Made by a program: the position numbers and the translations under genes
Assembly: GCA_019695235.1 (NCBI GenBank)
Contig: JAIBAI010000018.1
Coordinates: forward strand, 1 to 50,579
Direction: 5' to 3'
Length of the DNA stretch: 50,579 bases
Source: Bacteroidia bacterium
GTDB taxonomy: Bacteria > Bacteroidota > Bacteroidia > M30B66
The notes under the pieces: model-generated
Told to the model about the DNA's origin: nothing
Database searches by the model: none
The model's input: only the letters and a program-made list of their open reading frames with translations
Part shown: positions 1 through 50,478 of the stretch, one piece after another
Numbering within the stretch: the first letter of the stretch is position 1
How the letters are laid out: every line of letters starts with the position of its first letter

Positions 1-2
1 CC

Positions 3-920
3 ATACCAAGTTCAACGTTGCGTAACCCATCCGGAATAAGTTATGGCGCAACAGGTACCCATCCGGTGAGCCTAAGAATTAATGACCAGGGTTGTTTGAG
101 CAATGTTTATACAGCTGAGGTAACAGTACATACGATGCCTGTTGCAAACTTTAAGTCGGATATATTTTCAGGATGTGCTCCGCAGGTTATCAGGTACACC
201 AATTTATCGAGCTCCGAAGATGCGGTAAAAACCTGGTTATGGGAGTTTGGGAACGAAAGGGCTTACAATCAGCAAACCCCTCCTCCGATTTTGTACGACA
301 AGCCGGGTTATTATACTGTAAGCCTGACGGTAACCAGTGAAAAAGGTTGTGCCGACACGTATGAGGTGCCGGGATTGGTGCGGATTTATCCTACCCCTAA
401 GGCAGGTTTTACGATTATACCCTTTGAAACAGAGATTACCCGCCCCATCATTGAAATTGACGACCTCTCAAAGGGTGCCAGCACTTGGAAATACGTGGTT
501 GAAAGTGTTGCCGATACGCTTGTTAAACGTGAGTTTAAGCACACCTTTAAAGACACCGGTACCTACAAAATCACACAAATTGTAAGTAACGAAGACGGCT
601 GCTCTGCTACATACGAAAGCAAAGCCCATGTACGTTTAGGATACCGGCTCTACATTCCGTCTGCATTTAGTCCGAACGATGATGGCAATAATGACCGGTT
701 TGCTGTGTACGGAGAAGGTCTAATGGAGGTGCGTATTGAAATTTACGATCGCTGGGGCGAGTTGCTTTATACCTCATTCGATGCTGCCAATGGTTGGGAT
801 GGCAAGGCGCGTTTATCAGACAAAACCGTACCGGGCGGAATTTATTATTACCGCGTTTTTGTGCAGGATTACTCGGGCGTTCACTGGAACTACCAGGGTA
901 TTGTAACGGTACTTAAATAG
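3..920 (+). CDS. T9SS type B cargo protein, C-terminal part (PKD domain plus gliding-motility-type CTD)
   Basis: The frame is open to the left edge, so the true start lies outside the window; a TTG at 18 is only an internal codon. About 305 residues are visible. A PKD-like domain lies in the first half (aromatic-rich WLWEFGNE, then the GYYTVSLTVTSEKGC strand pair). The last ~95 residues form a T9SS type B (CHU_C) sorting domain, recognised by YIPSAFSPNDDGNND, the YDRWGELLY strand and the terminal GGIYYYRVFV and GIVTVLK strands. Such proteins cross the outer membrane by the type IX system and are attached to or released from the surface. The gene converges on the SBBP-repeat gene, with stop codons about 20 bases apart. 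The passenger function cannot be read from this fragment. Confidence 0.9.
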   Translation: MPSSTLRNPSGISYGATGTHPVSLRINDQGCLSNVYTAEVTVHTMPVANFKSDIFSGCAPQVIRYTNLSSSEDAVKTWLWEFGNERAYNQQTPPPILYDKPGYYTVSLTVTSEKGCADTYEVPGLVRIYPTPKAGFTIIPFETEITRPIIEIDDLSKGASTWKYVVESVADTLVKREFKHTFKDTGTYKITQIVSNEDGCSATYESKAHVRLGYRLYIPSAFSPNDDGNNDRFAVYGEGLMEVRIEIYDRWGELLYTSFDAANGWDGKARLSDKTVPGGIYYYRVFVQDYSGVHWNYQGIVTVLK

Positions 921-939
921 TAAGTGTTTTCAGACTGAA

Positions 940-3900
940 TTATTCAGCAACACAAATCAATTTAAGGTTTGCCTGATAGTTGTCAGAGCTAAGGTGCATG
1001 AAATAAACACCGGTGGTCAATTGAGGGAGCTGAATAGCATTTGAGCCGGTAGCGATATTTTCAAACGCACTCCAGATAATTTTCCCACCTACATCACTTA
1101 GGTTGAGTTGATAGTTACCTACGAACCGTGCATCTTTCAGGTTCATATTTACCTTGGTACTAAAAGGGTTCGGGAATATCTCCAGCACTTTTTCGGTGTT
1201 GAGCAGTTGAAGGCCGTTCGACCGGCATTCATCTCCAACTTTGATACGTACCCACACTTCTGCTGGTTTCACACAGGTACCAGGGGGTGGGGTATAAGTA
1301 ATCAAATTCATGCCAGGATTGGCTTCTTTTGGCAGAAAGATATTACCGGAAACGCCAGGGCCGGCGAATGTGCCTCCTTCCGGAGAACCAATCATCATGA
1401 TGGGCGGATGGTTGTTGCAATAAACAGAATCGAGATTAGGGATTTGCCCTTGTACCGTTTGAATAATTTCGAGTGATTGGGTATTTGTATTTGACCCTCC
1501 GCCGTTAGTGGCTTTTAGCTGTACTTCGTAGGTGCCTCCGGTTTGATAAATATGCCATGGGTTTTGCGTGGTTGAGGTATTTTGTTGTCCTGAAGTAGGG
1601 TCGCCGAATGTCCATTCCCAGCCGGTAGGATTCCCTGCACTTTGGTCGGTGAAAAAGGTGGTGTCGCCGGAGCAGGCAATGATTTTGGTGAAATTAGCCA
1701 GTGGTAATTCAAGACTGCTTTTCCCGAATTTAGCTATGTAGCAATCTTCTTCTGTGATAACCGAGCCATTACCGGGTAGTTTTGTGCTTTGATAAAAAGC
1801 GCCTTCGCCCGGGTCAAGCAAAGGGATGGTTCCGCCTCTTGAAAAACCGGTAATAAAGATATTTCCCTGCGGGTCAACAGTTAAATCAGTTGGATAATCA
1901 TTGTCTTCACCTCCGAAAAATGTACTCCACCTGAGCGCACATTCGGGGCTAAATTCCATTACAAAAGCATCATACTTTTGTGAACCCTGGTTTACAGGCT
2001 GGAAATACGAACCATCACCAGGGTCGAGTGTAACGAAATTTGCCGCACGAGTTTGGCCATACACGTAAAAGATATCATTATGGCCTACTCCAATGGAAGC
2101 CATGCCCCCGCGTCCGGTTCCCTGGAGATGTGTTGCCCACTCTAAAACGCCCTGGTTATCGAAACGCAGCATAAAGGGAGTACCGCCGAAGATGTCGCCG
2201 CCCATAGTTGTATGGTAATAGGCCCCGGCACCGAGGTCTTTAAGTATCAGAGAGGGCGCTTCGGTAATCAACCCGACATATACTTTGCCTCTGCTGTCGC
2301 ATGCAACACGTCCTCCAAGCGTTTCGCCGGAAGCATCGCCAAAATAGGTTGACCAAAGCAAAGTTCCACTTTGATTGAACTTAAGGATAACCGCATCATT
2401 AACGGTACCTGAAAAACCTGGTTGAAAATAGGCACCAGCACCAGCATCTTTTGTAAAGAAGTCAGTTGAAGCAGTTGTACCTACTACATAGAGGTTGTTG
2501 TCTTTATCAACGGCCAATGAAACACCACTTTCTCGATCCTGACCGCCATAATAGGTTGACCAAAGCAGGGTGCCGTTGCTTGCGAATTTACTGATGAAGA
2601 AATCACGGGTGCCCGATACGGTGCCGTCAAAGTAGGCACTTCCACCGGGGTTTAACACCGGAAAATCAGAAGAACCTGTAAGGCCAACCAGGTATATGTT
2701 TTCCTGCGCATCTATTTCCATATCCAAGGGAAAATCGTCTCCGGTTCCGCCCATGTAGCTTGCCCAAATCCTGTTTCCGGAAGCAGAAAACTTTGCAATA
2801 AATACATTGTTTATCGCACCAGTACCAAGGGCTGCCTGGTAGAAAGCTCCTCCGGGGCCTGCCAATACAGGGAGGTCATCAGAATTTGTGTTGCCTGTTA
2901 CAAAAACATCTCCAGCAGCATTGATAATCAGGCCTGATCCTGCATCAACCTTTGCTCCACCGAAATACGTACTCCATAGCAAAACGCCTGAATTGCTAAA
3001 CTTCGATATGAAAGCATCGGCGTTGCCTGCTAAGGTACCCTGAAAGTTGTCGGGTGTCATTGGGAAATTTATACCAAAGGCGAAACCACATAAAAAGATG
3101 TTCCCGCTATTGTCGTGCGTAATTGAGATGGCCTGGTCCTGAAAATTCCCGCCAAAATAGGTTGACCACACCAGGGGAGGGTCAATAACAAGCATTTTGG
3201 CAGTGTTGTATTCAGCAGGAACGATCGAAACCAATTCTCCCTGAATAGCATACTGGCAGGCGATTGCTGCACCAGAGGCATCGTGGCAAAAGAGTTTGCC
3301 TTCGGAAATTTCGCCCAGGGCATTCTTTATTTTTAGCGCCTGCATGCTTTCGTTACCACTAATTTTTGCATCGCCCGTGTATTTCATTCTGATGGATGAG
3401 GGGTTTGCTCCTGGTTTCACCTCAAAATCATATTTTACCTCACCATTGTTAAGATACATCACCCAGTCAATACCAGGATACACTTCTGTAAAACGTATTT
3501 TTTTACAAACATCTGCCTGGATTTCTGCGCCATGGTTCATCGCCAGGTAATATTTTAAATTTTCGGCTCCCTTTTTTTCAATTTGCATGTTTTCGTTAGA
3601 AATACGTGCATTCTCAAAGCCAAGATCAACCCTTGACCATTTTACCTGTATAGGAGCCGGTAACTCCTCCTTACTAATGGGTGTTTTGCTGCTCTCCCAG
3701 AACACATAACTTAGTCCGGCGGTGGTGATATAGATATTCATGCCATTACCGGGAAGTTTAAACAGAATACGAGGGTCTGAGGGGGTTGTGCCCGAATCAA
3801 ATTGGCCTTTATTTTGAATAAAGCCAATGGGATTCATTGGCAGATTTGTACCAGAAGATGCAAAGAGCGATGCAGGTAAAAAGATGAAAAGACCACTTAT

Positions 3901-3945
3901 AGCAACAAGGCATTTTTTTACGAGAGTATGAAGGCAAGCAATCAT
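940..3945 (-). CDS. SBBP-repeat/PKD secreted protein with T9SS type A sorting domain
   Basis: The protein has 1001 residues if it starts at the ATG at 3945, which is followed directly by a signal peptide (VKKCLVAISGLFIFLPASLFA). An upstream in-frame extension to 4140 is rich in Phe and Tyr, does not look coding, and is rejected. The order is an N-terminal domain of the DUF7948 kind (GFIQNKGQFD near residue 40), then seven or eight propeller-like SBBP repeats at roughly 255-735 (recurring LLWSTYFGG, the FISKF strand and DAGAGAYFQ-like loops). A PKD domain (GWEWTFGDP) lies near 755-835, and the type A sorting domain (LEIFPNPFSTKVNM, ending LTTGVYFMHL) occupies the last ~80 residues. It is predicted to be exported by Sec and then T9SS to the cell surface or medium. 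The ligand or role is unknown. Confidence 0.9.
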   Translation of the reverse strand: MIACLHTLVKKCLVAISGLFIFLPASLFASSGTNLPMNPIGFIQNKGQFDSGTTPSDPRILFKLPGNGMNIYITTAGLSYVFWESSKTPISKEELPAPIQVKWSRVDLGFENARISNENMQIEKKGAENLKYYLAMNHGAEIQADVCKKIRFTEVYPGIDWVMYLNNGEVKYDFEVKPGANPSSIRMKYTGDAKISGNESMQALKIKNALGEISEGKLFCHDASGAAIACQYAIQGELVSIVPAEYNTAKMLVIDPPLVWSTYFGGNFQDQAISITHDNSGNIFLCGFAFGINFPMTPDNFQGTLAGNADAFISKFSNSGVLLWSTYFGGAKVDAGSGLIINAAGDVFVTGNTNSDDLPVLAGPGGAFYQAALGTGAINNVFIAKFSASGNRIWASYMGGTGDDFPLDMEIDAQENIYLVGLTGSSDFPVLNPGGSAYFDGTVSGTRDFFISKFASNGTLLWSTYYGGQDRESGVSLAVDKDNNLYVVGTTASTDFFTKDAGAGAYFQPGFSGTVNDAVILKFNQSGTLLWSTYFGDASGETLGGRVACDSRGKVYVGLITEAPSLILKDLGAGAYYHTTMGGDIFGGTPFMLRFDNQGVLEWATHLQGTGRGGMASIGVGHNDIFYVYGQTRAANFVTLDPGDGSYFQPVNQGSQKYDAFVMEFSPECALRWSTFFGGEDNDYPTDLTVDPQGNIFITGFSRGGTIPLLDPGEGAFYQSTKLPGNGSVITEEDCYIAKFGKSSLELPLANFTKIIACSGDTTFFTDQSAGNPTGWEWTFGDPTSGQQNTSTTQNPWHIYQTGGTYEVQLKATNGGGSNTNTQSLEIIQTVQGQIPNLDSVYCNNHPPIMMIGSPEGGTFAGPGVSGNIFLPKEANPGMNLITYTPPPGTCVKPAEVWVRIKVGDECRSNGLQLLNTEKVLEIFPNPFSTKVNMNLKDARFVGNYQLNLSDVGGKIIWSAFENIATGSNAIQLPQLTTGVYFMHLSSDNYQANLKLICVAE

Positions 3946-4067
3946 GAGGTAAAGGGGGGTGTTTTGTAAAAATCCGAAACTTAAGAACAAAAATGGAAAA
4001 AATAATTTAGCACAGAATAAATAACTGGTTTTTGCCAAGTGTCTGGAATAATATTTGGAAAGTAATG

Positions 4068-4104
4068 AAAAAAAAAACGGGAACCACTGTAAGTGATTCC
4101 CGTT
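4068..4104 (-). terminator. Strong intrinsic terminator, leftward, with no recognised gene upstream
   Basis: Arms 4076-4088 and 4092-4104 pair over 13 positions with one mismatch around a 3-base loop. On the minus strand the stem is followed by a run of about ten U (A run at 4068-4077 on the plus strand). Confidence 0.8.
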
Positions 4105-4517
4105 TCTGCAGATGTGGATACCGTAATACCCAGCTGCCACGCATTGGCCTTTTGTTTTTGATGGTTCAGAGAATGTTGGTTTTCATCCCCGGCGCTCCGC
4201 AGCCCTGTTTCAAGAACTGACAGCTTCCGGATTTCAATCATGCCCGAGCATCCCACCTGGCAATAATTCAAATAAGTCAACAGCATCTCTGCGTTTGTCT
4301 ATTTTAGAATTCGCTCTGGCTTTCAGACACGGTAGATTCTTTCCAACCAAAATTGCAATACTTCCGGTTGCCCGGTTAGGTTCCGCCTGATTATAGTTGG
4401 TACCGTATGTATTGTCGTAGGTTAATCCGAAGATTCACTCTCTTTCAGCAAGCTGTAAAAACATCAAAAGAACAATCAGCATCAATGTGCTAGAACAAAT
4501 GTAGTAATAATCTGTTG

Positions 4518-4540
4518 AAAATCAAGTGTTTGGCTTGATT
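4518..4540 (-). terminator. Probable terminator of the glycosyltransferase operon
   Basis: A perfect 7-bp stem (AATCAAG 4520-4526, CTTGATT 4534-4540) with a 7-base loop is followed by a short U run on the minus strand, about 70 bases past the stop codon at 4612. The stem is AT-rich and the U run short, so it is moderate. Confidence 0.45.
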
Positions 4541-4611
4541 CTTTCTTAACATTGTTTCCACAGGTTTATTCACCGGGTAAACACTTGCTGGCATGGCAAA
4601 ACCATTGCTTG

Positions 4612-5952
4612 TTAACCACTTGTTGATAAATTGCCTGTTGATAAGCTCATTTCATCCAGCAGGCCTGCAAGTTTTTCTACCTGAATTTCGCGGCTGAATT
4701 GTGCGGAATAAGCTGTATCCGGCCTGTTGAGTGCACTTTCGCCCTGGAGAAATTGCTCAAAAAGTTTTTGAAGCACCTCAAATGCTTCTGCAGGAGTATT
4801 GGCGATATAGCCCAGGTTATACGGTTGAAATGTTTGGTCAAGTATATCGTCATCTCCGGGGCAAATCAATACAGGTTTTCCGAGGGCGAGGTATTCATAA
4901 ATTTTGCTCGAAGGGATGCCTTTACTTCCGGTATGGGCCACCATTAGCAGCAAATGTGCAGAAGCCTGGATGTTCAGTACTTCCTGACGGGGAATTCTTT
5001 CTGTCATTTCCAGCAGGTGCTCATACCCTTTCAACTGTTCGCGAACATATTTGGCAACATCTTTCAGAAAAAGAATTCCGGGGAACTTCAAGCGCAACTG
5101 CTGCTGGTGTTCAGCAAATTGGTCGGCCAATTGTTTAAACGCATCTAAAAACACCTTAATATTTTGGCTGGGATAAAGCATCCCATTATATACAATGGTG
5201 AATTGGGGCGCTAATGGTAAATTGTTGTAGGGCACAAAATCGCTTTTTACAAAACCATTTAAGATTGAATGACCGGGGCGCTTAACAAATCTTCCAATTT
5301 TTTCTGCGTAATAGGGTGAAACCGAGGTAATACAATGGGCTGTACTGATATACCGCCGCTCACTTTTTCGTTCTAACCAACGCAACAAACTATCGGCCAA
5401 ACCACGTTTCTGATAAACCTCGCTGGTGGTCCAGTCGTCACGGTAATCAGCAATCCAGGGGATATGATGCCTGCGATGTAGCAGGTAACCAAATCTGAAT
5501 ATCTCAAAGGGATTGCCGGTAACAATCATGGCACTAACGTCTGAATGGGTTTTCAGGTACTGATCGGCAAAATAATAGATATGTTTAAATGGAATTACTG
5601 CTGTTATGAAGTGGTGTGCCAGTAACTCCCAGTAAGAGAGAGCTTTACGCAAAGTATTGTACTTTGTTTTACCATAACGTGCATAAAGCCGGTCGCGCCT
5701 GTTTCCTTTAAATGGTACATACCATACTTCATAACCATCGTGTTGCTGGTGAATTACTTGACTACCAGAATCATGGTGCATATCGTCAGGCGAAGCGATT
5801 AAGCGTTCCCAGTTCCGGGTGATAATTATGGGGTAATAACCAAATCGGTGCAGATATCTTGCCCAACCGTGGCTTCGTTGTGCAGCAGTGAGCACGCAAG
5901 GCGGGAAGAAATAGCTGAGAATGAGTATTTTCTTTAAGCCTGATGCATTCAT
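4612..5952 (-). CDS. Glycosyltransferase, GT4-like
   Basis: The protein has 446 residues and the GT-B pattern. The N-terminal domain opens with KKILILSYFFPP and an ITRNWE strand. The C-terminal nucleotide-sugar domain carries the EX7E-like region IPSSKIYEYLALGKPVLICPG near residue 365. No signal peptide or membrane span is seen, so it should act on the cytoplasmic face, transferring a sugar from a nucleotide donor to a lipid-linked or polysaccharide acceptor. It is the second gene of a two-gene operon: its ATG overlaps the upstream glycosyltransferase stop as ATGA at 5949-5952, so translation is probably coupled. Donor and acceptor specificity cannot be inferred. The nearby divergent CapD-like gene suggests surface polysaccharide synthesis. 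Confidence 0.85.
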   Translation of the reverse strand: MNASGLKKILILSYFFPPCVLTAAQRSHGWARYLHRFGYYPIIITRNWERLIASPDDMHHDSGSQVIHQQHDGYEVWYVPFKGNRRDRLYARYGKTKYNTLRKALSYWELLAHHFITAVIPFKHIYYFADQYLKTHSDVSAMIVTGNPFEIFRFGYLLHRRHHIPWIADYRDDWTTSEVYQKRGLADSLLRWLERKSERRYISTAHCITSVSPYYAEKIGRFVKRPGHSILNGFVKSDFVPYNNLPLAPQFTIVYNGMLYPSQNIKVFLDAFKQLADQFAEHQQQLRLKFPGILFLKDVAKYVREQLKGYEHLLEMTERIPRQEVLNIQASAHLLLMVAHTGSKGIPSSKIYEYLALGKPVLICPGDDDILDQTFQPYNLGYIANTPAEAFEVLQKLFEQFLQGESALNRPDTAYSAQFSREIQVEKLAGLLDEMSLSTGNLSTSG

Positions 5953-7013
5953 GAAAACAAACGAATAAAGTTATCAGTGTTACTGCTTACCGAATAAGCT
6001 TCTTCAATTTTCTTTCGGGTGTTAAGGGCAAGCCGGAAACGTTCTTCCGGATGCGCAAGCAGCTTTTCAATTGCAGCTTTCCATTGTTTGCTTTCTGCAC
6101 AAATAAAGCCATTTACATTATCGTCAACGATGCGTGTATTTACTCCCACAGGCGATACAATTGCCGGAATACCCAAAGCCATGTATTGAAGTGCTTTAAA
6201 GCCACATTTCCCCTGTGCCCATTTATCATCTCGTAGCGGCATGATACCTATGTTCATACGCAGCAAATCATTGATTTCAGTTGATTTGTTCCATTTGATG
6301 TACCTGAGTGACTTTAAGGTATACTCAGGTTTAAGATCTGAGATAACTAAAAACTCAAAATCATATTTCTGTTCCAACTCAGCCAATATTGGGATAACTT
6401 CTTCCATGTAACGGATGGTTGAATGAGAACCCGTCCAGCCAATTACCACTTTTGAAGTATTTTGGTCTTTTACCTGATTATGAAGGTGTTGGGTGTCAAT
6501 GGTTGTGGGGTTGTAAAACACACGGGTATTGTACTGCAAAGCATAGTTGCAGAGATACTCATTCCCACAGGATACTTTGTAAGCCCAACGGCAAATAAAC
6601 TTCACATTAGGGTAGCCTTTTAAAATTGAAAACAAACTGTTCGCCTCCGAATAGTTCGGTATCCAGATTGCATCGTCAAAGTCGTAAATAATTTTCTTCC
6701 GAAGTATTTTTGCTGCGATAAATTCGAAGAAGGGTGGTCCGATAGGTGTGGCTTCTCTGTGAATAAACAGGTAGTCGTATTTGCTCAGCCGAAAAAGCAG
6801 AAAAAACCTTCGTAGCAGCCCGCCGAGAATAGCCATGCCTTTGCGCATAAACCGCCCTGGCAGGTACAAAATGCCCCAAATTGATTCGGATAAGAAAGGC
6901 TTTACTTCATAAGTTATCCCCGCCTTTTCAAGTATCCCAAAGTACTGTTCGAACCTGAAACGTTGGCTTGGTGCCTTTCCTAAAGGATAGGGAACAATAA
7001 ACAAAACTTTCAT
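5949..7013 (-). CDS. Glycosyltransferase, family 4/1-like
   Basis: The protein has 354 residues and starts at ATG 7013 (MKVLFIVPYPLG). The N-terminal Rossmann half includes a basic, aromatic stretch (GRFMRKGMAILGGLLRRFF, near 50-75), probably a membrane-surface helix. The C-terminal half has the donor-binding region GKCGFKALQYMALGIPAIVS near residue 265-285. The likely role is sugar transfer to a membrane-bound acceptor during surface polysaccharide or glycan assembly. It is the first gene of a coupled pair with the second glycosyltransferase (4-base overlap). It is divergent from the CapD-like gene across about 130 bases that must hold both promoters. Substrate specificity is unknown. Confidence 0.85.
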   Translation of the reverse strand: MKVLFIVPYPLGKAPSQRFRFEQYFGILEKAGITYEVKPFLSESIWGILYLPGRFMRKGMAILGGLLRRFFLLFRLSKYDYLFIHREATPIGPPFFEFIAAKILRKKIIYDFDDAIWIPNYSEANSLFSILKGYPNVKFICRWAYKVSCGNEYLCNYALQYNTRVFYNPTTIDTQHLHNQVKDQNTSKVVIGWTGSHSTIRYMEEVIPILAELEQKYDFEFLVISDLKPEYTLKSLRYIKWNKSTEINDLLRMNIGIMPLRDDKWAQGKCGFKALQYMALGIPAIVSPVGVNTRIVDDNVNGFICAESKQWKAAIEKLLAHPEERFRLALNTRKKIEEAYSVSSNTDNFIRLFS

Positions 7014-7141
7014 GCTGCTGTAGAAAGGCAGGCAAACCTACTAAAAATCACAGGGCTATGAAATTTTGTAACTCATTGATAGTGAAAGGTGTGTAAAATT
7101 GTGTTGTGACAAGCCGGCTGAAAAATCGCTACATTTGCCGG

Positions 7142-9016
7142 ATGCGTTTGTTAAGCGGTAGTACACCTGTGTGGATTCTGTTTGCGGGTGACCTGTTTAT
7201 CACCTTTGTGGCCATTTGGATTTCATACCTGTTGCGGTTCGAGTTTGCGATACCCCAGGTTGAATGGCTCACTTTCGGGGTGGTGTTTCCGGCTATATTA
7301 GCAAGTAGGGCACTTGGTTTTTTACTATTCAGTACCCATCGCACTATGATACGTTTTAGCGGCTTTGGTGATTTCAGAAGTATTGTACTGGCTAACATTA
7401 CCGCAACGGGCCTGCTAATGCTTTCGAATCCGGTGTTTTTCATGATGAAAGGCGTTTACACTGTGCCTTTTTCGATTCTTATCATAGAGTTGATGTTTAC
7501 AACTGTGATGATGGGTGCTACACGGATTTTGGGGCGTACTTTATACCGGGAACTAACGGCTGGCAAGGGAGAGACCTATCAGGTACTTATTTTCGGTGCT
7601 GGCGAAACAGGGCTTACGGCCATGCGCGCCATACAACGTGATGCCGGAACGCGGTACAAGGTCTGTGGTTTTTTAGATGACGACAAGACAAAGGTGGGGA
7701 AGAAATTTCAGGGCGTACCTGTGAAAAGTCCTGAAGACTTTGATATTCTGCGTTCCCAGCACAATGTACGCCTGTTGATTCTCGCCACTTCTACCATGCA
7801 GGCCGCGCGAAGAACAGCCTTGATTGAACATTGTCTGACCCATCAGGTAAAGGTGTTTTCGGTACCTCCTGTAAGCAAATGGATAAATGGGGAGCTGAGT
7901 TTCAAACAAATACGAAAAATCAATATTAACAGCTTGCTGGAGCGCGACCCGATTGTGCTCGACCTTGCCTTGATTGGTTCACAGATGCAGGGCAAGCGTA
8001 TTCTGGTAAGTGGTGCTGCGGGTTCCATTGGCAGTGAAATAGTCAGGCAACTCACCCAATTTAAACCCGTTCAGTTAATTCTGCTCGACCAGGCGGAAAG
8101 TGCACTGTATGAGTTAGAAAGAGAGCTGGAAACAGAGGCGGAACATATAAAATGTGTTTTTGTTGTGGGTGATATTACCAATCAGCTCAGGCTTGAAGCA
8201 GTATTTGAGCAATATAAACCTGAACTTGTTTTCCATGCCGCAGCTTATAAGCATGTGCCTTTGATGGAAAGCAATGTTTACGAAGCCTGCCGTACTAATA
8301 TCATGGGTACCCGGATAATGGCAGACTTGAGCCATCGCTTCAAAGTAGAGAAGTTTGTAATGGTTTCGACCGATAAAGCTGTCCGCCCAAGCAATGTCAT
8401 GGGGGCAAGCAAACGCATAGCCGAAATGTATGTTCAGGCACTTGGCGTAACATCCACTACCCGCTTTGTAACTACACGTTTTGGCAATGTGCTTGGCTCA
8501 AATGGCTCGGTAATTCCACTTTTAACCAGGCAGATTGAGCGTGGTGGCCCGGTTACGGTGACCCATCCGGAGATTACCCGCTATTTTATGACCATCAGTG
8601 AAGCCTGCCAATTGGTTTTAGAAGCCAGTGCCATGGGAGAAGGGGGTGAGATTTTTATTTTCGACATGGGTAAATCGGTGAAGATAATTGACTTGGTGCA
8701 TAAGATGATTCAGCTGTCTGGATTGGTACCCGGTAAGGATATAGAGATTGTTTATACTGGCTTACGACCTGGCGAAAAACTGTATGAAGAGCTATTGAAC
8801 GACCAGGAAAACACCTTGCCAACCCATCATCATCAGATTATGCGGGCGCGTATTGCTCCGGTACATTTTGAGGATATCAGCAACAAGGTCGGGGAGTTGC
8901 TACAGATGTGTGAGCACCTGAATGAGAAAGAAATGGTAAGGTTAATGAAAGCATTGGTGCCTGATTATGTGAGTAATAATTCGGTTTTTCAAACGTTAGA
9001 CAAGGCTGTGGTATGA
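7142..9016 (+). CDS. Membrane-bound CapD-like nucleoside-diphosphate-sugar epimerase/dehydratase
   Basis: With the ATG at 7142 the protein has 624 residues; a GTG at 7106 would add 12. The ATG is preferred because LLSGSTPVWILFAGDL then sits at the usual family N-terminus. Four membrane helices fill roughly residues 8-120. A CoA-binding-like Rossmann domain follows (VLIFGAGETG near 155), then the extended SDR domain (ILVSGAAGSIGSE near 290). The catalytic region shows the serine/threonine-rich VMVSTDKAV, where these large CapD proteins have Met or Tyr variants of YxxxK. The family makes 4-keto-6-deoxy sugars from UDP-HexNAc for capsule, O-antigen or glycoprotein glycans. It overlaps the thioesterase by 4 bases. 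The exact reaction is inferred from the family. Confidence 0.9.
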   Translation: MRLLSGSTPVWILFAGDLFITFVAIWISYLLRFEFAIPQVEWLTFGVVFPAILASRALGFLLFSTHRTMIRFSGFGDFRSIVLANITATGLLMLSNPVFFMMKGVYTVPFSILIIELMFTTVMMGATRILGRTLYRELTAGKGETYQVLIFGAGETGLTAMRAIQRDAGTRYKVCGFLDDDKTKVGKKFQGVPVKSPEDFDILRSQHNVRLLILATSTMQAARRTALIEHCLTHQVKVFSVPPVSKWINGELSFKQIRKININSLLERDPIVLDLALIGSQMQGKRILVSGAAGSIGSEIVRQLTQFKPVQLILLDQAESALYELERELETEAEHIKCVFVVGDITNQLRLEAVFEQYKPELVFHAAAYKHVPLMESNVYEACRTNIMGTRIMADLSHRFKVEKFVMVSTDKAVRPSNVMGASKRIAEMYVQALGVTSTTRFVTTRFGNVLGSNGSVIPLLTRQIERGGPVTVTHPEITRYFMTISEACQLVLEASAMGEGGEIFIFDMGKSVKIIDLVHKMIQLSGLVPGKDIEIVYTGLRPGEKLYEELLNDQENTLPTHHHQIMRARIAPVHFEDISNKVGELLQMCEHLNEKEMVRLMKALVPDYVSNNSVFQTLDKAVV

Positions 9017-9429
9017 TGAAGCATCAGATAGAGGTTCAGTTAAGGTTTTCAGATTTTGATATGATGCGGCATGTGAACAACGCCCGTTATGCAAGTTATA
9101 TGGAGCTTGGAAGGATTGCATTTTTTAACGAGGTAATTGACCGCCAGCACAATTGGCAACATATTGGTATGGTGGTGGCAAGGCTGGAGCTTGATTTTAA
9201 GCTTCCGGTTTTATGGGGAGAACAGATGATGGTTGAAACCAGGGTTACCGAAATTGGCCAAAAATCAATGCAAATTGAAAACCTGATTTTTGCCGGAAAA
9301 GAGAGTGCATCCTATACCATACGAGCCGTTGGGCGTACGGTTTTGGTATGCTTTCATTATACCGAAAACAAGAGTATTCTTGTGCCAACCGAATGGCGTA
9401 CCAGGTTTGAGAACTATCTTGTATCTTAA
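9013..9429 (+). CDS. Acyl-CoA thioesterase, 4-hydroxybenzoyl-CoA thioesterase (hotdog) family
   Basis: The protein has 138 residues, the usual size of a single hotdog domain. The family signature is clear: RFSDFDMMRHVNNARYASYME contains the catalytic Asp followed by HVNN and the start of the long central helix. It hydrolyses an acyl-CoA or acyl-ACP thioester in the cytoplasm; the natural acyl chain cannot be told. The start ATG overlaps the CapD-like stop (ATGATG at 9013-9018), so expression is coupled, although a metabolic link is not obvious. A second ATG follows immediately at 9016 and would shorten it by one residue. Confidence 0.88.
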   Translation: MMKHQIEVQLRFSDFDMMRHVNNARYASYMELGRIAFFNEVIDRQHNWQHIGMVVARLELDFKLPVLWGEQMMVETRVTEIGQKSMQIENLIFAGKESASYTIRAVGRTVLVCFHYTENKSILVPTEWRTRFENYLVS

Positions 9430-9463
9430 GAAACCTGCTATGTCAGGCAAGCCTCCATTTTTC

Positions 9464-9471
9464 TATTTTTG
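9464..9471 (+). promoter_or_regulatory. Candidate -7 element for gldF
   Basis: TATTTTTG matches TAnnTTTG exactly, 16 bases before the ATG at 9487. No good -33 TTTG is visible. Transcription from here would begin near 9478, which argues against an in-frame TTG start at 9469. Confidence 0.45.
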
Positions 9472-9486
9472 GCCACGTTGATTGCC

Positions 9487-10218
9487 ATGTTTGCTTTACT
9501 TAAAAAAGAGGTTGCTGCATTTTTGAATTCATTGGTAGGTTATATCGTTATTTCGGTATTTCTATTGGCAATGGGTTTAAGTCTTTGGTTGTTTCCCGGG
9601 AGTTTCAATATCCCTCAGGGAGGTGTTTCTTCGCTTGAGAATTACTTTGTATTGGCACCCTGGGTCTTTATGTTTTTAATTCCGGCAATAACCATGCGAT
9701 CATTTGCAGAAGAAAGACGCACCGGAACTATTGAATTATTGCTTACCCGCCCGCTTACCGAATGGCATATTGTGTTGGCGAAATACCTTGCCGGGCTAGT
9801 ATTGGTGACGCTTGCGATTGTGCCAACCTTGATTTATTTTTATTCTGTTTATATGTTGGGCAATCCGGTGGGTAATATAGATACCGGAAGCACCATTGGT
9901 TCTTATCTCGGGCTATTGTTGCTGGCAGCAGCCTTTGTAGCGGTTGGTAATTTTGCATCGGTACTCAGTGATAATCAGATTGTTGCATTTTTGCTTGGTT
10001 TCTTTCTGTGCTTTTTTCTCTTTGCCGGATTTGATTCTATTGCTACAATGAAGTGGTTGGGTCGGTTGGGCTTGCTTGTTTCTTATTTAGGCATTAGTGA
10101 GCATTATTCCTCTATGAGCAGAGGGGTAGTTGACAGCCGTGACCTTGTTTATTTTTTCGGATTTATTCTGCTATTCTTAACCTTTACACGATTCAGGCTG
10201 CTTGGAAGAAAATGGTAA
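9487..10218 (+). CDS. gldF: Gliding motility ABC transporter permease GldF
   Basis: With the ATG at 9487 the protein has 243 residues, close to known GldF proteins. It has about six membrane helices. The cytoplasmic loop ITMRSFAEERRTGTIELLLT (near 75-90) is typical of ABC-2 permeases, contacting the ATPase. GldF, GldG and the ATPase GldA form an ABC transporter needed for gliding in flavobacteria; its substrate is not established, and species lacking it can still have T9SS. An in-frame TTG at 9469 lies inside the candidate -7 element and is a less likely start. It overlaps gldG by 17 bases if gldG starts at its TTG. No gldA is in the window, so the ATPase must be encoded elsewhere. Confidence 0.92.
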   Translation: MFALLKKEVAAFLNSLVGYIVISVFLLAMGLSLWLFPGSFNIPQGGVSSLENYFVLAPWVFMFLIPAITMRSFAEERRTGTIELLLTRPLTEWHIVLAKYLAGLVLVTLAIVPTLIYFYSVYMLGNPVGNIDTGSTIGSYLGLLLLAAAFVAVGNFASVLSDNQIVAFLLGFFLCFFLFAGFDSIATMKWLGRLGLLVSYLGISEHYSSMSRGVVDSRDLVYFFGFILLFLTFTRFRLLGRKW

Positions 10219-11982: not shown

Positions 11983-12987
11983 TTGAAAAAGACCAACCAA
12001 ATTTTACTTGCTGCGGTAATCGTCGCTACGGTGTTTGTCGCCTATTTTCTGATGACCCGTTCAGGTTCAACCTTACGTGGTGAATTGCGTGATTTTGCAA
12101 TCGAAGATACCGGCGCTATTGAACGTATTTTTATTGCAGATAAATTAGGGCATACCTCCTTGCTTGAAAGAAAAGGTACAGGTTACTGGACCGTAAATGA
12201 TAAATATACAGCAAGGCAAGATGCGGTGAAGAACCTGCTCATCACACTCTCGAAAATGAAGGTAAAAGCCCCTGTTGCAGAATCAATGGAGGCCAATGTT
12301 TTGAAAGACCTTTCAGGGCCGGTGCAGCGCAAAGTAGAAGTGTACGCTGGCGGAAGGCGAATTAAGACTTTTTATGTTGGCGGTGAGACTATTGACAAGA
12401 ATGGTACTTTCATGTTGCTCGAACATTCGAGTAAGCCCTTTGAGGTATATGTGCCCGGTCACAAAGGATTCCTGCAAACCCGTTTCATTACTGATGAAAG
12501 AATCTGGCGCGACCAAAGCATTTTTGCATTAGAGAAAAATGCGATTCGCTCAATAACTGTTCAAAACAATGAGCAGCCAGAGAATAGTTTTCAAATAGAG
12601 ATTCCTGACAAAGGCAGTCCGGTATTGAAAGGGCCAAAAGGTGCAGAACGTGCAGATACACTTTTGTTGAATCAATATATCACGCAATACCGGAGGATGG
12701 GTTTTGAATATGTAATCACTGATGAAACATTTCCGGCATCGAGAAAAGATTCAATTCTTTCGGCCCAACCATTTGTTGACATTAAAGTGCTAACCCGCAA
12801 AGGTGAGACAAAACACTTACAGGCCTATAGAAGGATACAGCCCCTAAATGAGGCAGTACAAATTGAAGGCGATTCGCCTTATGACCCCGAGCGTGCTTAT
12901 GCACTAATTGACGGAAAGGATTTTGTGCTGGTACAGTATTTTCAGCTTGATCGCTTACTGGTTCCAGGGGGGTATTTTGTAAAATAA
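11983..12987 (+). CDS. DUF4340 membrane-anchored protein, third gene of the gldFG operon
   Basis: The protein has 334 residues and begins with TTG at 11983, five bases after the gldG stop. One N-terminal membrane helix (ILLAAVIVATVFVAYFLM) anchors a periplasmic region. That region contains two DUF4340-like units: Trp-bearing GYWTVNDKYTARQDAVKNLL near 65 and a second, more diverged unit after residue 190. In many bacteria DUF4340 proteins sit beside GldG-like auxiliary proteins of ABC-2 transporters, so a role as an extra periplasmic partner of GldFG is a reasonable inference. It has not been shown biochemically as far as I know. The gene is followed within 4 bases by a strong terminator. Confidence 0.88.
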   Translation: MKKTNQILLAAVIVATVFVAYFLMTRSGSTLRGELRDFAIEDTGAIERIFIADKLGHTSLLERKGTGYWTVNDKYTARQDAVKNLLITLSKMKVKAPVAESMEANVLKDLSGPVQRKVEVYAGGRRIKTFYVGGETIDKNGTFMLLEHSSKPFEVYVPGHKGFLQTRFITDERIWRDQSIFALEKNAIRSITVQNNEQPENSFQIEIPDKGSPVLKGPKGAERADTLLLNQYITQYRRMGFEYVITDETFPASRKDSILSAQPFVDIKVLTRKGETKHLQAYRRIQPLNEAVQIEGDSPYDPERAYALIDGKDFVLVQYFQLDRLLVPGGYFVK

Positions 12988-12990
12988 AAA

Positions 12991-13021
12991 AGAGGCTGCT
13001 CTGAAGGGCAGCCTCTTTTTT
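12991..13021. terminator. Bidirectional intrinsic terminator between DUF4340 and a small secreted-protein gene
   Basis: AGAGGCTGC pairs with GCAGCCTCT around a short loop and is flanked by A and T runs on both sides, so it can end transcription from both converging genes. Confidence 0.9.
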
Positions 13022-13038
13022 GATTCATGCTATCAGAA

Positions 13039-46622: not shown

Positions 46623-47032
46623 GGTTGCTTAACGATTTGTTTAGTTGCCTTGCCTGATTTTTTTTGGTCGTAGGGACGCAGTGGTGCAGAAACGGTCCTG
46701 ATTGTTGTCTCTGAGCTGCTTGGGCTGACTGATTTACCTTTTACAATCTTTCCTTTTGCAGTTTTGTAGCCAGGGCCAATGGGAGTCAGTTGGGCCTTAT
46801 GTGTTATTATACGTACATCTCCTTCCTGTGGTGTACCTGCGCTTTGAACAGCCACTCGTTGTTGGTTTTTTCTTGAAGCATCATAAGGCTGTAACGCAAC
46901 CGGTGCAAGCTTCACAACTTTTACATCAGGCTGTTCAATACGCTGCATTTGCTCTGATTGCGCGCATAATTCAATGCAAGATGCCAAAAGGAAGCTGGTA
47001 AGAACAAATAAAGAAAGTGGCAGGTGCTTCAT
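46619..47032 (-). CDS. Small exported protein with duplicated PYD motif, second gene of the collagen-like operon
   Basis: The protein has 137 residues. The hydrophobic N-terminus (LSLFVLTSFLLASCIELCAQ) could be cut by signal peptidase I after CAQ, or act as a lipoprotein signal at the cysteine in LASC. The mature chain is basic, Pro/Ser/Thr-rich and probably extended. A short motif occurs twice: VALQPYDASRK near residue 46 and APLRPYDQKKSG near 117. No family is recognised. It overlaps both neighbours by four bases (ATGA), so it is made in fixed ratio with the collagen-like and T9SS cargo proteins. Confidence 0.75.
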   Translation of the reverse strand: MKHLPLSLFVLTSFLLASCIELCAQSEQMQRIEQPDVKVVKLAPVALQPYDASRKNQQRVAVQSAGTPQEGDVRIITHKAQLTPIGPGYKTAKGKIVKGKSVSPSSSETTIRTVSAPLRPYDQKKSGKATKQIVKQP

Positions 47033-50000
47033 GGCATGATAACCGTTATGGTGAACTCTGTTTGCAGGTAATTATATCCCTGTGATATTGGCCCCAAAAG
47101 GCGCCCTGAATAGTTGTCTACCACAAAGCGTACCTCTCCGTTTCTTGCCTCTACATGTGTAATGGTAAAGTATGGCGGGTCAGCCCATTCGCCTTCAACA
47201 TTTATAAAAATTGAGCTGATTACATCGGTGGGTATGCCAGTACCAGTAATCGCATAAATTGAATTTGCAGGTATGTCAATAGGAGGGTAGCTGTACTTCA
47301 ACACCCTTGCTGTGTTCACTTTGTTCCAGTTGCTGCCTGTCCAGTAATAATAACCTGGCGATACATCATAAGGTGAAGTGCCTGCTGTTTGGGTGTTGTA
47401 AACCATAAGTGATGTTGCAGGAGCAGTAACCGGCGCAGCAACATTAGTGGCAGTAAGAGCTACACGTGGTAGCAAAACCCCTTTGTCAACCGAAGCAATG
47501 TCAAGGCGGGCAGACGCATCAGGGTTGGGATTGGTGATGCCAACATTGCCATTAGGCGCCAGACGAACATATTCATTCATATTTGAACCATTGCTGGTGC
47601 CTAAAAGCAGTGGATCGCCTTCCCTTCCAATCAGGGCTTGCTGTGGGATGTCGTCGTCACCGCTTGAAAGCCTGATAAAATGTGCAGCACTTTGCGTTGC
47701 CACCTGCAACACAGCACCTCCATTCACACTGGTTGTACGTAGGTCAAATGTTTGCTGTGGTAGTATGGTACCAATCCCCAAACGTCCATTGTTGTCAATC
47801 CGCATTCGGTCAGCTCCATTCACCTTAAACGCCAACGCTACATTGTCGGTAGTTCCGATAAAATTTGTCCCTGCGATGGTACCCGTATTCCCAAATAAAT
47901 CCCAGGCATTTCCAGCACTTCCCGGAGGGCCTTGCGGCCCCGCCGGCCCTTGTGGCCCAACAGCCCCTGTAGCACCAGTGGGTCCAGCGGGACCTTGCGG
48001 TCCAGCAGCTCCTGTAGCACCAGTGAGACCAGCAGGACCTTGCGGTCCAGCAGCTCCTGTAGCACCAGTGGGACCAGCAGGTCCTTGCGGCCCAACAGCA
48101 CCGTCAGCACCGTTTGCCCCAGCAGGTCCGGTTAATCCTATGGGACCAGCAGGTCCTTGGGGCCCGACAGCACCATCCGCGCCGTTAGCGCCAGCGGGGC
48201 CGGTCAATCCTATGGGACCAGCAGGTCCTTGGGGTCCAACTGCACCGTCAGCACCGTTTGCACCAGCAGGACCTTGCGGACCGACAGCACCATCCGCACC
48301 GTTTGCACCGGCAGGTCCGGTCAATCCTATGGGACCAGCAGGACCTTGTGGACCAACTGCACCGTCAGCACCGTTTGCACCCGCAGGTCCTTGCGGGCCA
48401 GCGGGTCCGGTCAATCCTATGGGGCCAGCAGGGCCTTGCGGTCCAACAGCACCATCCGCACCGTTTGCACCAGCGGGTCCTTGCGGCCCAACAGCACCAT
48501 CGGTGCCGTTTGCTCCGGCAGGTCCTTGCGGTCCAACAGCACCTGTAGCACCAGCGGGTCCAGCGGGACCTTGTGGTCCAACAGCACCTGTAGCACCAGC
48601 GGGTCCTTGCGGCCCAACAGCACCATCGGTGCCGTTTGCTCCGGCAGGTCCTTGCGGTCCAACAGCACCTGTAGCACCAGCGGGTCCAGCGGGACCTTGT
48701 GGTCCAACAGCACCTGTAGCACCAGCGGGTCCTTGCGGCCCAATAGCACCATCGGTGCCGTTTGCTCCGGCAGGTCCTTGAGGTCCAACAGCCCCATCAG
48801 CGCCATTTGCTCCGGCAGGTCCGGTCAATCCTATGGGACCAGCGGGACCTTGCGGTCCAATAGCCCCAGCGGGACCCTGTGGTCCAACAGCTCCATCAGC
48901 ACCGTTTGCTCCGGCAGGTCCGGCTGGCCCTTGCGGTCCTGTAGCACCATCAGCGCCATTCGCCCCAGCTGGCCCTTGCGGACCAACAGCACCGGCAGGT
49001 CCGGTTAAACCTATGGGGCCGGCTGGTCCTTGCGGACCTGTAGCACCATCAGCACCGTTTGCTCCGGCAGGTCCGGCTGGCCCTTGCGGTCCTGTAGCAC
49101 CATCAGCGCCATTCGCCCCAGCTGGCCCTTGCGGACCAACAGCACCGGCAGGTCCGGTTAAACCTATGGGGCCGGCTGGTCCTTGCGGACCTGTAGCACC
49201 ATCGGCGCCATTTGCTCCGGCGGGCCCGGTCAATCCTATGGGACCAGCGGGACCTTGCGGTCCGACAGCACCTGTAGCACCAGCAGGACCTTGCGGTCCA
49301 ATAGCCCCTGCGGGACCCTGTGGTCCAACAGCTCCATCAGCACCGTTTGCTCCGGCAGGTCCTGTCAATCCTATGGGACCAGCCGGACCTTGCGGCCCAA
49401 CAGCTCCATCAGCGCCATTTGCTCCGGCAGGTCCTGTCAATCCTATGGGACCAGCCGGACCTTGCGGTCCAATAGCCCCTGCGGGACCCTGCGGTCCAAC
49501 AGCACCATCGGCGCCATTTGCTCCGGCGGGCCCGGTCAATCCTATGGGACCTGCGGGTCCTTGCGGCCCGACAGCTCCATCAGCGCCATTTGCTCCGGCA
49601 GGTCCTGTCAATCCTATGGGACCAGCCGGACCTTGCGGTCCAACAGCGCCATTTGCTCCGGCAGGTCCTGTCAATCCTATGGGACCAGCGGGACCCTGTG
49701 GTCCAACAGCTCCATCAGCACCGTTTGCTCCGGCAGGTCCTGTCAATCCTATGGGACCAGCCGGACCTTGCGGCCCAACAGCCCCTGTAGCACCAGTGGA
49801 ACCAGCGGGACCCTGTGGCCCGACAGCTCCTGTAGCACCAGCAGGTCCAGCAGGACCTTGCGGTCCAACAGCGCCATTTGCTCCGGCAGGTCCGGTCAAT
49901 CCTATGGGACCAGCCGGTCCTTGCGGTCCAGCAGCTCCAGTAGCACCAGTGGGACCAGCAGGACCTTGCGGTCCAGCAGCTCCTGTAGCACCAGTGGGAC

Positions 50001-50478
50001 CAGCCGGACCTTGCGGTCCAACAGCACCTGCGGGGCCGGTTGGGCCGGGAGTGCCAGGATTGTCAGAGCGTAAGGCATACAAGGCAAAGGGAACGGAAAC
50101 CAATTGTGACTCGCCAATGGTTATATAATCACCTGTGCTGAATTGGTCAACTTCAATCTTTACCCATTTTTCACCTTCAGCCCAATTTATGGTATTGAAA
50201 GAGCCAACCAATGCTTCGCCTAAACCTATTTTAAAGGTAAACAAGCCAAACTGGTTGGTGACTGCCGGATGGGCTTCCTGGTACTCAACAGCACTTCCCT
50301 GCCCGTCACCCAGTATGCTTACGCGTAATTTAAGTGATTGGTTGACCAACAATGCTCCAGTACCTGTTCTGGCAACTGCTTGATAATTAATTGATTGTGG
50401 AATCTGTGCCGCAAGCCTCTCCAGACTTGAAAACAACAAAACAAAAATCAAAATTGCGAGGGAGTAAATCTTTTGCAT
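47029..50478 (-). CDS. Long collagen-like surface protein
   Basis: The protein has 1149 residues. A signal peptide (LAILIFVLLFSSLERLAAQ) leads into a ~115-residue N-terminal domain with IPQSINYQAVARTGTGALL and QLVSVPFALYALRSD, a module found before variable tails in Bacteroidota surface proteins. Residues 142-855 are about 238 uninterrupted Gly-X-Y triplets, dominated by GPQGPAGPIGLTGPAGANG. The C-terminal 293 residues are not collagen: they contain RMRIDNNGRLGIGT and LLPRVALTATNVAAPV, which recur in fibre- and tail-like proteins, and end in beta strands. No T9SS sorting domain is visible, so its export route past the outer membrane is unclear. It heads a coupled operon of three genes. Confidence 0.9.
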   Translation of the reverse strand: MQKIYSLAILIFVLLFSSLERLAAQIPQSINYQAVARTGTGALLVNQSLKLRVSILGDGQGSAVEYQEAHPAVTNQFGLFTFKIGLGEALVGSFNTINWAEGEKWVKIEVDQFSTGDYITIGESQLVSVPFALYALRSDNPGTPGPTGPAGAVGPQGPAGPTGATGAAGPQGPAGPTGATGAAGPQGPAGPIGLTGPAGANGAVGPQGPAGPAGATGAVGPQGPAGSTGATGAVGPQGPAGPIGLTGPAGANGADGAVGPQGPAGPIGLTGPAGANGAVGPQGPAGPIGLTGPAGANGADGAVGPQGPAGPIGLTGPAGANGADGAVGPQGPAGAIGPQGPAGPIGLTGPAGANGADGAVGPQGPAGPIGLTGPAGANGADGAVGPQGPAGAIGPQGPAGATGAVGPQGPAGPIGLTGPAGANGADGATGPQGPAGPIGLTGPAGAVGPQGPAGANGADGATGPQGPAGPAGANGADGATGPQGPAGPIGLTGPAGAVGPQGPAGANGADGATGPQGPAGPAGANGADGAVGPQGPAGAIGPQGPAGPIGLTGPAGANGADGAVGPQGPAGANGTDGAIGPQGPAGATGAVGPQGPAGPAGATGAVGPQGPAGANGTDGAVGPQGPAGATGAVGPQGPAGPAGATGAVGPQGPAGANGTDGAVGPQGPAGANGADGAVGPQGPAGPIGLTGPAGPQGPAGANGADGAVGPQGPAGPIGLTGPAGANGADGAVGPQGPAGANGADGAVGPQGPAGPIGLTGPAGANGADGAVGPQGPAGPIGLTGPAGANGADGAVGPQGPAGPTGATGAAGPQGPAGLTGATGAAGPQGPAGPTGATGAVGPQGPAGPQGPPGSAGNAWDLFGNTGTIAGTNFIGTTDNVALAFKVNGADRMRIDNNGRLGIGTILPQQTFDLRTTSVNGGAVLQVATQSAAHFIRLSSGDDDIPQQALIGREGDPLLLGTSNGSNMNEYVRLAPNGNVGITNPNPDASARLDIASVDKGVLLPRVALTATNVAAPVTAPATSLMVYNTQTAGTSPYDVSPGYYYWTGSNWNKVNTARVLKYSYPPIDIPANSIYAITGTGIPTDVISSIFINVEGEWADPPYFTITHVEARNGEVRFVVDNYSGRLLGPISQGYNYLQTEFTITVIMP
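47911..50055 (-). repeat. Collagen (Gly-X-Y) coding repeat region, about 2.1 kb
   Basis: The DNA is a hierarchical repeat: 9-base triplet units combine into longer blocks, often 72 bases (24 residues), around GPIGLTGPAGANGADGAVG. Neighbouring blocks are nearly identical in base sequence, including codon choices, which implies recent duplication or gene conversion. The GC content is well above the flanks. Confidence 0.93.

Follow-up and report, generated by a model that had tools for sequence, protein, structure and literature searches.

6S RNA is a rod of ~180 nt with a central bubble that imitates an open promoter. OLE, ROOL and GOLLD, like the raiA-motif RNA, are large, structured and conserved bacterial RNAs that have a gene of their own and a molecular role that is largely open. 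Large structured RNAs that are conserved across families usually have important roles; to our knowledge, few have been described from the Bacteroidia, a class abundant in guts and waters, and we know of no DnaA-box cluster at the raiA-motif, OLE, ROOL or GOLLD genes. Clusters of DnaA boxes within a few hundred base pairs are found at oriC, datA and DARS1/2. 6S RNA is experimentally known in Bacteroides (PMC7366714), the raiA-motif RNA (ModT) is described with reference to Bacillota (PMC11706538) and boxA occurs in the leaders of rRNA operons (PMC4807359, PMC10250234).

The locus considered here resembles each of these systems in part. It is located in a window of 50,579 nucleotides, i.e. the whole stretch of DNA analysed (contig JAIBAI010000018.1), and is best read as encoding a stand-alone RNA with a structural or regulatory role, possibly controlled by DnaA. 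The element is very probably an RNA gene, and the full explanation, in which a terminator closes the separate gene of a structured ~420-nt non-coding RNA with DnaA-box-like sites upstream, also appears probable (Table 1). As for the raiA-motif RNA, OLE, ROOL and GOLLD, the product would be large, structured, conserved and encoded by its own gene, but those RNAs are known from other phyla, and the element is without an Rfam match.

Table 1. Predicted features of the locus, in the order in which they are met on the minus strand
Feature	Position in window	Strand	Details and basis
DnaA-box-like cluster	4566..4644	-	TTATCAACA on minus at 4636-4644 and 4621-4629; TTATTCACC on plus at 4566-4574; weaker sites between
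Putative promoter	4496..4526	-	CTTG at 4526-4523, 19 nt, TACATTTG at 4503-4496; sigma-ABfr-like
Probable non-coding RNA gene, ~420 nt	4068..4490	-	placed to start ~7 nt past the -7 box and to stop at the U run
Predicted closing helix, 5' strand	4461..4490	-	contains boxA-like GTTCTTTTGA; from 5'-3' pairing energies
Predicted closing helix, 3' strand	4138..4164	-	CCATCAAAAACAAAAGGCCAATGCGTG; from 5'-3' pairing energies
Predicted hairpin before terminator	4108..4137	-	UACG loop; from folding; the GCAG/CUGC stem annotated earlier
Predicted intrinsic terminator	4068..4107	-	stem of 15-16 pairs, 3-nt loop, ten U; from scans

The first-pass annotation of this DNA had reported a strong hairpin with a U run away from the end of any protein gene, and this observation holds. 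The minus-strand hairpin at 4107-4073 has 16 pairs in our scan, 15 under a strength filter and a 3-nt loop, and is followed directly by ten U, which correspond to the plus-strand A run at 4068-4077. Four terminator matches pass the strength filter in the real window (4077, 13015, 12991 and 30134), of which that at 4077 is the strongest and those at 13015 and 12991 are a single site read on each strand; the same filter yields four matches in total from 200 dinucleotide-shuffled whole windows. A looser scan of positions 1-10000 found six terminator-like sites compared with 11.4 in shuffles, i.e. fewer than chance, thus it is the strength of the terminator at 4077, not the number of sites, that is exceptional. 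The preceding leftward gene, named a glycosyltransferase by Pfam, stops at 4612 as annotated, and the next leftward gene, with DUF7948, SBBP and PKD domains and a secretion tail, starts near 3945. Elsewhere in the window, a strong terminator at 12980-13027 is readable on both strands.

Between these two genes, a minus-strand frame from 4440 runs for 66 codons without a stop, and the codon score of a 33-codon window is coding-like (9.7 compared with 6.9 in 400 letter shuffles, s.d. 1.5, maximum 12.1), as might be expected if the region were the remnant of a protein gene closed by an ordinary terminator. However, at E≤0.001 the frames tested match nothing in Pfam or PHROG (lowest E values 0.033 and 0.019), and a search of 149 genomes returned, besides the sequence itself, three matches with E values of 0.01-0.08, which on inspection were judged antisense or chance. 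We therefore regard a protein origin as extremely unlikely.

In plain DNA homology searches, the region stayed at noise level against 40 relatives and the nine further genomes of the window's family, and plasmids gave no match. Three family genomes (G007, G006 and G004) carry a non-coding stretch downstream of the glycosyltransferase orthologue, on the same strand, with short conserved blocks and a similar terminator; this starting place was picked by eye from their resemblance, so that the choice was not blind. The motif taken from the three copies, CTTTGATACAG-N8-20-GTTCTTTAA, occurs in exact form once each in G001, G004, G006, G007 and G009, that is in 5 of 395 genomes of the class, all belonging to the window's family. 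It is absent from the other 390, including the window's own genome, whose copy deviates, and the reversed motif has no match in the 395. Allowing one mismatch adds a second G009 copy, a tandem duplicate of boxes, promoter, RNA and terminator (L095 and L125, G009:C7, ~10.1-11.4 kb), and allowing three mismatches gives three matches (two inspected, L124 left out) compared with five for the reversed control, which is the noise level.

A profile HMM of the six copies other than that of the window (nhmmer) matches the window on the minus strand at 4649-4467 (E 2.2e-5, 16.4 bits) and 4132-4067 (E 0.0033, 9.2 bits). The two matches are collinear and the best in the window, where the next has an E value of 5.6, and the controls score lower, with a best value of 3.2 bits for the reversed window and of 5.5 bits over 800 kb of other contigs. 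From seven copies, the window included, a further model (R1) was made for the upstream part on sequence alone; it gave strong matches in 7 of the 10 family genomes, six of which are members of the model by construction; the new match, in G003 (E 1.7e-19), lies just downstream of the same glycosyltransferase as in the window. No strong match was seen in G002 (E 0.0075), and nothing in G005 or G008. Conservation in relatives, on which the first-pass annotation had made its proposal depend, is thus found across most of the family.

The sigma-ABfr consensus is given as TTTG / TAnnTTTG in PMC7366714. The copies share a general layout in which repeated TTATNNAC sites come first, the -33 element reads TTTG or TTG, and after a spacer of 19-21 nt the -7 box closes with TTTG. 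The promoter TTTG aligns in 16 copies, and the full TAnnTTTG is present in 15 of 24 tallied copies, the other nine keeping TTTG with different first letters; the window copy has TA at the -7 box, whereas the other six tallied copies of its family have CA. The weak hairpin annotated at 4518-4540 and assigned to the glycosyltransferase gene is visible in the letters, but it is absent from the terminator scan and overlaps the -33 part of the RNA promoter. Measured from promoter to U run, the RNA would be nearer 420 nt than the 150-300 bases originally estimated, and its predicted length within the family ranges from about 402 to 475 nt.

The 5' and 3' ends of the RNA are predicted to pair. When the first 38 nt were paired with the 70-nt stretch ahead of the last hairpins, the energies of the own 5'-3' combinations, summed over six copies, beat all other 719 partner permutations (best of 720), a figure that contains some freedom, since these shorter segments were chosen after a first test with longer segments had shown no clear own-partner preference, and since G009b was omitted as a near-duplicate. 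The G004 copy pairs more favourably with two foreign partners than with its own. The terminator stems likewise show paired changes between copies, as read from alignments. The annotated GCAG/CUGC stem around GGGUA/UAUCC is present at 4137-4108, and its counterparts precede the terminator in related RNAs: the UACG-loop hairpin recurs at the matching place in G001, G007, G009, the copies of genus g7 and the second G054 copy, and G004 and G006 have a pre-terminator hairpin with a different loop. The body of the RNA folds better than shuffled sequence in five of seven copies (z -2.7 to -5.3; two of the five are the tandem duplicates), whereas folding is weak in G004 (z -1.7) and in the window copy (z -0.8, little better than shuffled). 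The predicted minimum-energy folds are branched.

At E≤0.05, R1 gave matches in 131 genomes of the 395 in the class, many by chance. Outside the window's family, the same layout was seen in genus g7 (five genomes, E 1.1e-6 to 1.1e-4), G054 (1.4e-7) and G126 (7e-5). The matches in G392 (9.0e-7) and G073 (2.7e-6) were rejected, being box-like sites before a protein gene with no RNA; at these loci (L134/L243 in G392, L138 in G073) the sites lie ~110 nt ahead of a gene that we take by eye to be rpiB, without RNA motifs. Forty-one weak R1 loci were checked by script for a boxA-like motif together with a terminator, which retained G225, G141 and a second copy in G054, while G022 is a possible, uncounted member; this filter is incomplete, as members found later have no boxA-like motif.

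A second model, R2, was made from the boxes and promoter of 16 copies and matched 53 of 395 genomes at E≤0.002. Inspection covered 14 loci above the weaker matches; ten have the TTTG box and a 5' motif, eight of these also a script-found terminator, and L243, L253, L254 and L255 were judged non-members. The R2 copies begin with AAGTGAGRGATAAAAG (a variant in g7) and, where complete, carry AATAACNGTARCTTGG or a variant near the end; neither motif is present in the window copy or elsewhere in its family. The closing helix of the other families has different letters, yet 51 of 60 positions pair in ten representatives, a value reached by only 9 of 20,000 partner shuffles, with the strands picked by hand. 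In nine of the ten, the outermost of the six positions is unpaired, and g7 is entered in this tally through a single representative, its member G184 differing at the 3' strand.

The third model, R3, contains only 3' ends, from 14 copies that all lie outside the window's family, and matched 38 of 395 genomes at E≤0.001, with G004 as the only one from that family. There it gives 39.4 bits (8.3e-6 at genome scale), compared with 24.1 bits for G001 and 17.6 bits for the window copy, the last being below the 21.8 bits of an unrelated terminator at 12980. Inspection covered 30 R3 loci plus places already known, and at 23 of the 30, TTTG and the 5' motif precede the match by 196-571 nt. Among the 16 loci outside the model this applies to nine, of which one (G011) was known before. 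The script found no 5' motif at the remaining seven (G267, G326, G146, G343, G313, G044 and G004), G004 belonging to a family with another 5' end. Both RNA ends were seen in six further families (f2, f3, f9, f14, f23 and f46), with RNA lengths of ~300 to ~680 nt. Some genomes have second 3'-end matches (G054:C75 at 35.8 and 91 kb, G225:C16 at 6.5 kb, G129:C75 at 75 kb), and the two G054 copies are strongly diverged from each other. Neither the pattern nor the sequences tried had a match in viral contigs, plasmids or phages.

The R1 matches in g7 and G054, together with the R3 match in G004, tie the window's family to the wider one, of which it would be a diverged branch, and we consider it likely that the element belongs to an RNA family distributed across the Bacteroidia. 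Near the 5' end, the window's family, g7 and G054 have a GTTCTTTRA-like stretch that recalls the boxA of rRNA-operon leaders; those leaders, however, precede rRNA, and no rRNA lies behind the element. In the f9, f23 and f2 copies, no such stretch was seen close to the 5' end, and boxA was dropped as a family-wide feature since part of the copies do not have it. A promoter-like TTTG and GTTCTTTAA, with the boxA-like word shared with the window's RNA family, are also present at L151 (G083:C1, ~1,408,900), directly ahead of what by eye is presumably a tRNA gene.

The neighbours of the element vary between families, which fits a free-standing gene. In the window's family (f1) they are the glycosyltransferase and YbaB (one YbaB gene being named by Pfam), and by eye we take the neighbours to be DUF77-like and SurE genes in G001, YbbR and CoaE in g7, DnaK and MsrB in G054 and a PhoH-like gene in f23 and f2, with further genes in other copies. 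These arrangements bear on two further explanations. The glycosyltransferase operon could have a long 3' untranslated region here, with the hairpin as its terminator, given that the stretch shares the strand of the operon and that the scan shows no further minus-strand terminator between 4612 and 4107. We consider this quite unlikely, since the unit has a promoter-like sequence of its own at a constant place among copies, the 5' end at this promoter pairs with the 3' end, the unit of G001 and G009 is not on the contig of that glycosyltransferase, and other genes adjoin it in other families. That the region serves as leader or attenuator for the DUF7948/SBBP gene, ahead of which the terminator lies by ~123 nt on the same strand, is highly improbable, as the next frame is on the opposite strand in G001, G004, G006, G007, the g7 copies, G054a, two of three f9 copies, two of five f23 copies and G010, and elsewhere is unrelated and on the same strand. 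At the sequence level, relatives carry the unit next to varying genes, and it can be linked to a wider Bacteroidia family that Rfam lacks. The proposal of a new small RNA gains support from homology, synteny, promoter, co-varying ends and terminator.

None of the 4227 families of Rfam 15 matches at gathering level over the element in the window or over its copies elsewhere; the gathering-level matches are tRNAs at other places only (in the window, and in L026, a locus without the element), and sub-gathering matches over the region were dismissed as chance-like. Consistent with the annotated lack of SRP RNA, RNase P and tmRNA motifs, no Rfam match was found for any of them. We recognised no paper that describes the RNA of the element in the literature covered, which includes few preprints and few subscription papers.

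The annotation had further offered a 6S-like RNA, and indeed both 6S/6S-Flavo RNA and the element would be stand-alone RNAs with their ends joined by a closing helix. That the element is the 6S RNA of its lineage would agree with the precedent in Bacteroides (PMC7366714) and with an open slot, as no 6S RNA was found elsewhere in the ten family genomes. RF00013 (6S) and RF01685 (6S-Flavo) have no match in the window, nor any at E≤1 in these genomes, but both models also miss the Bacteroides control, so that their silence is weak evidence within the Bacteroidia. More telling against 6S are the length of ~420 nt instead of <200 nt, i.e. two to three times longer (~300 to 680 nt in relatives), the branched predicted folds in place of a rod, and the different motifs. 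Thus the 6S-like label finds no support, and we regard a 6S identity as very unlikely, favouring a free-standing RNA of another kind. The 6S RNA of the ten family genomes may simply be too diverged for the two models.

Ahead of the promoter, DnaA-box-like sites are enriched. In 24 upstream regions, 55 9-mers with at most one mismatch to TTATNCACA were counted, compared with 7.5 (s.d. 3.0, maximum 16) in 100 shuffles, and five exact 9-mers compared with 0.3, in a set of which most copies had been found by way of the boxes. Six copies found by R3 (G017, G061, G171, G382, G132 and G101, of which G017 also had a weak R2 match) contribute 13 of the 55, compared with ~1.9 expected for their share, and G132 and G101 each have one canonical TTATCCACA just upstream of the RNA. 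The enrichment sits in the 190 nt ahead of the promoter. In the window, the boxes align with those of other copies, and both TTATCAACA boxes fall within the final codons of the glycosyltransferase gene.

A box cluster is common to the element and to datA, DARS and oriC, and the locus could be mainly a DNA element of this type, either an origin or a DnaA-titrating or -reactivating site, with the RNA secondary. The strength of the enrichment would suit such a role, as would the finding that the element is the top box cluster on the 320-kb contig G006:C9; however, two other places tie with it in G093:C2 (0-200 kb), and another place in G101:C4 outscores it under a wider pattern. Moreover, datA, DARS and oriC are DNA sites, whereas here a structured RNA gene would lie right behind the cluster. 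The GC skew also shows no switch at the element on contigs of four other genomes, examined in place of the window's own replichore: in G132:C9 and G101:C4, 19 of 20 bins of 20 kb have one sign, and the exception lies at a distance of 60-100 kb; in G093:C2, no sign change is met between 33 kb left and ~87 kb right of the element, so that the nearest change is ~33 kb distant; and G006:C9 has no clear switch. G022, which was scanned as well, is not counted among the four. The element is therefore not read as oriC, which is unlikely, and a predominantly DNA-based role, which could then be datA- or DARS-like, appears improbable.

RNA polymerase would start near 4489 on the minus strand, and the RNA would fold with its ends closed and stop at 4068. 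With less certainty, and from the sequence of the sites alone, DnaA, or a factor with the same site, may bind the array and thereby couple RNA output to the state of replication or growth. That DnaA controls the RNA in this manner is possible but doubtful. The folded RNA might in turn act in trans, as a ribonucleoprotein component or regulator like other large structured bacterial RNAs, a role proposed because of conservation and structure only. More tentatively still, box cluster and RNA gene could form one module across the Bacteroidia, in which DnaA sets the level of a trans-acting RNA, or RNA and cluster together titrate or reactivate DnaA. The location of the gene behind DnaA-like boxes is suggestive of a tie between replication control and an RNA, and such a module would, if real, connect replication with cell physiology through an RNA, an arrangement for which we know of no counterpart.

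At the far end of the window, positions 47031-50478 (minus strand) hold a gene that Pfam assigns to the Collagen triple-helix repeats and that contains numerous tandem repeats overlapping one another; here the GC content rises to ~65% (48001-50000), compared with ~43% for most of the window.
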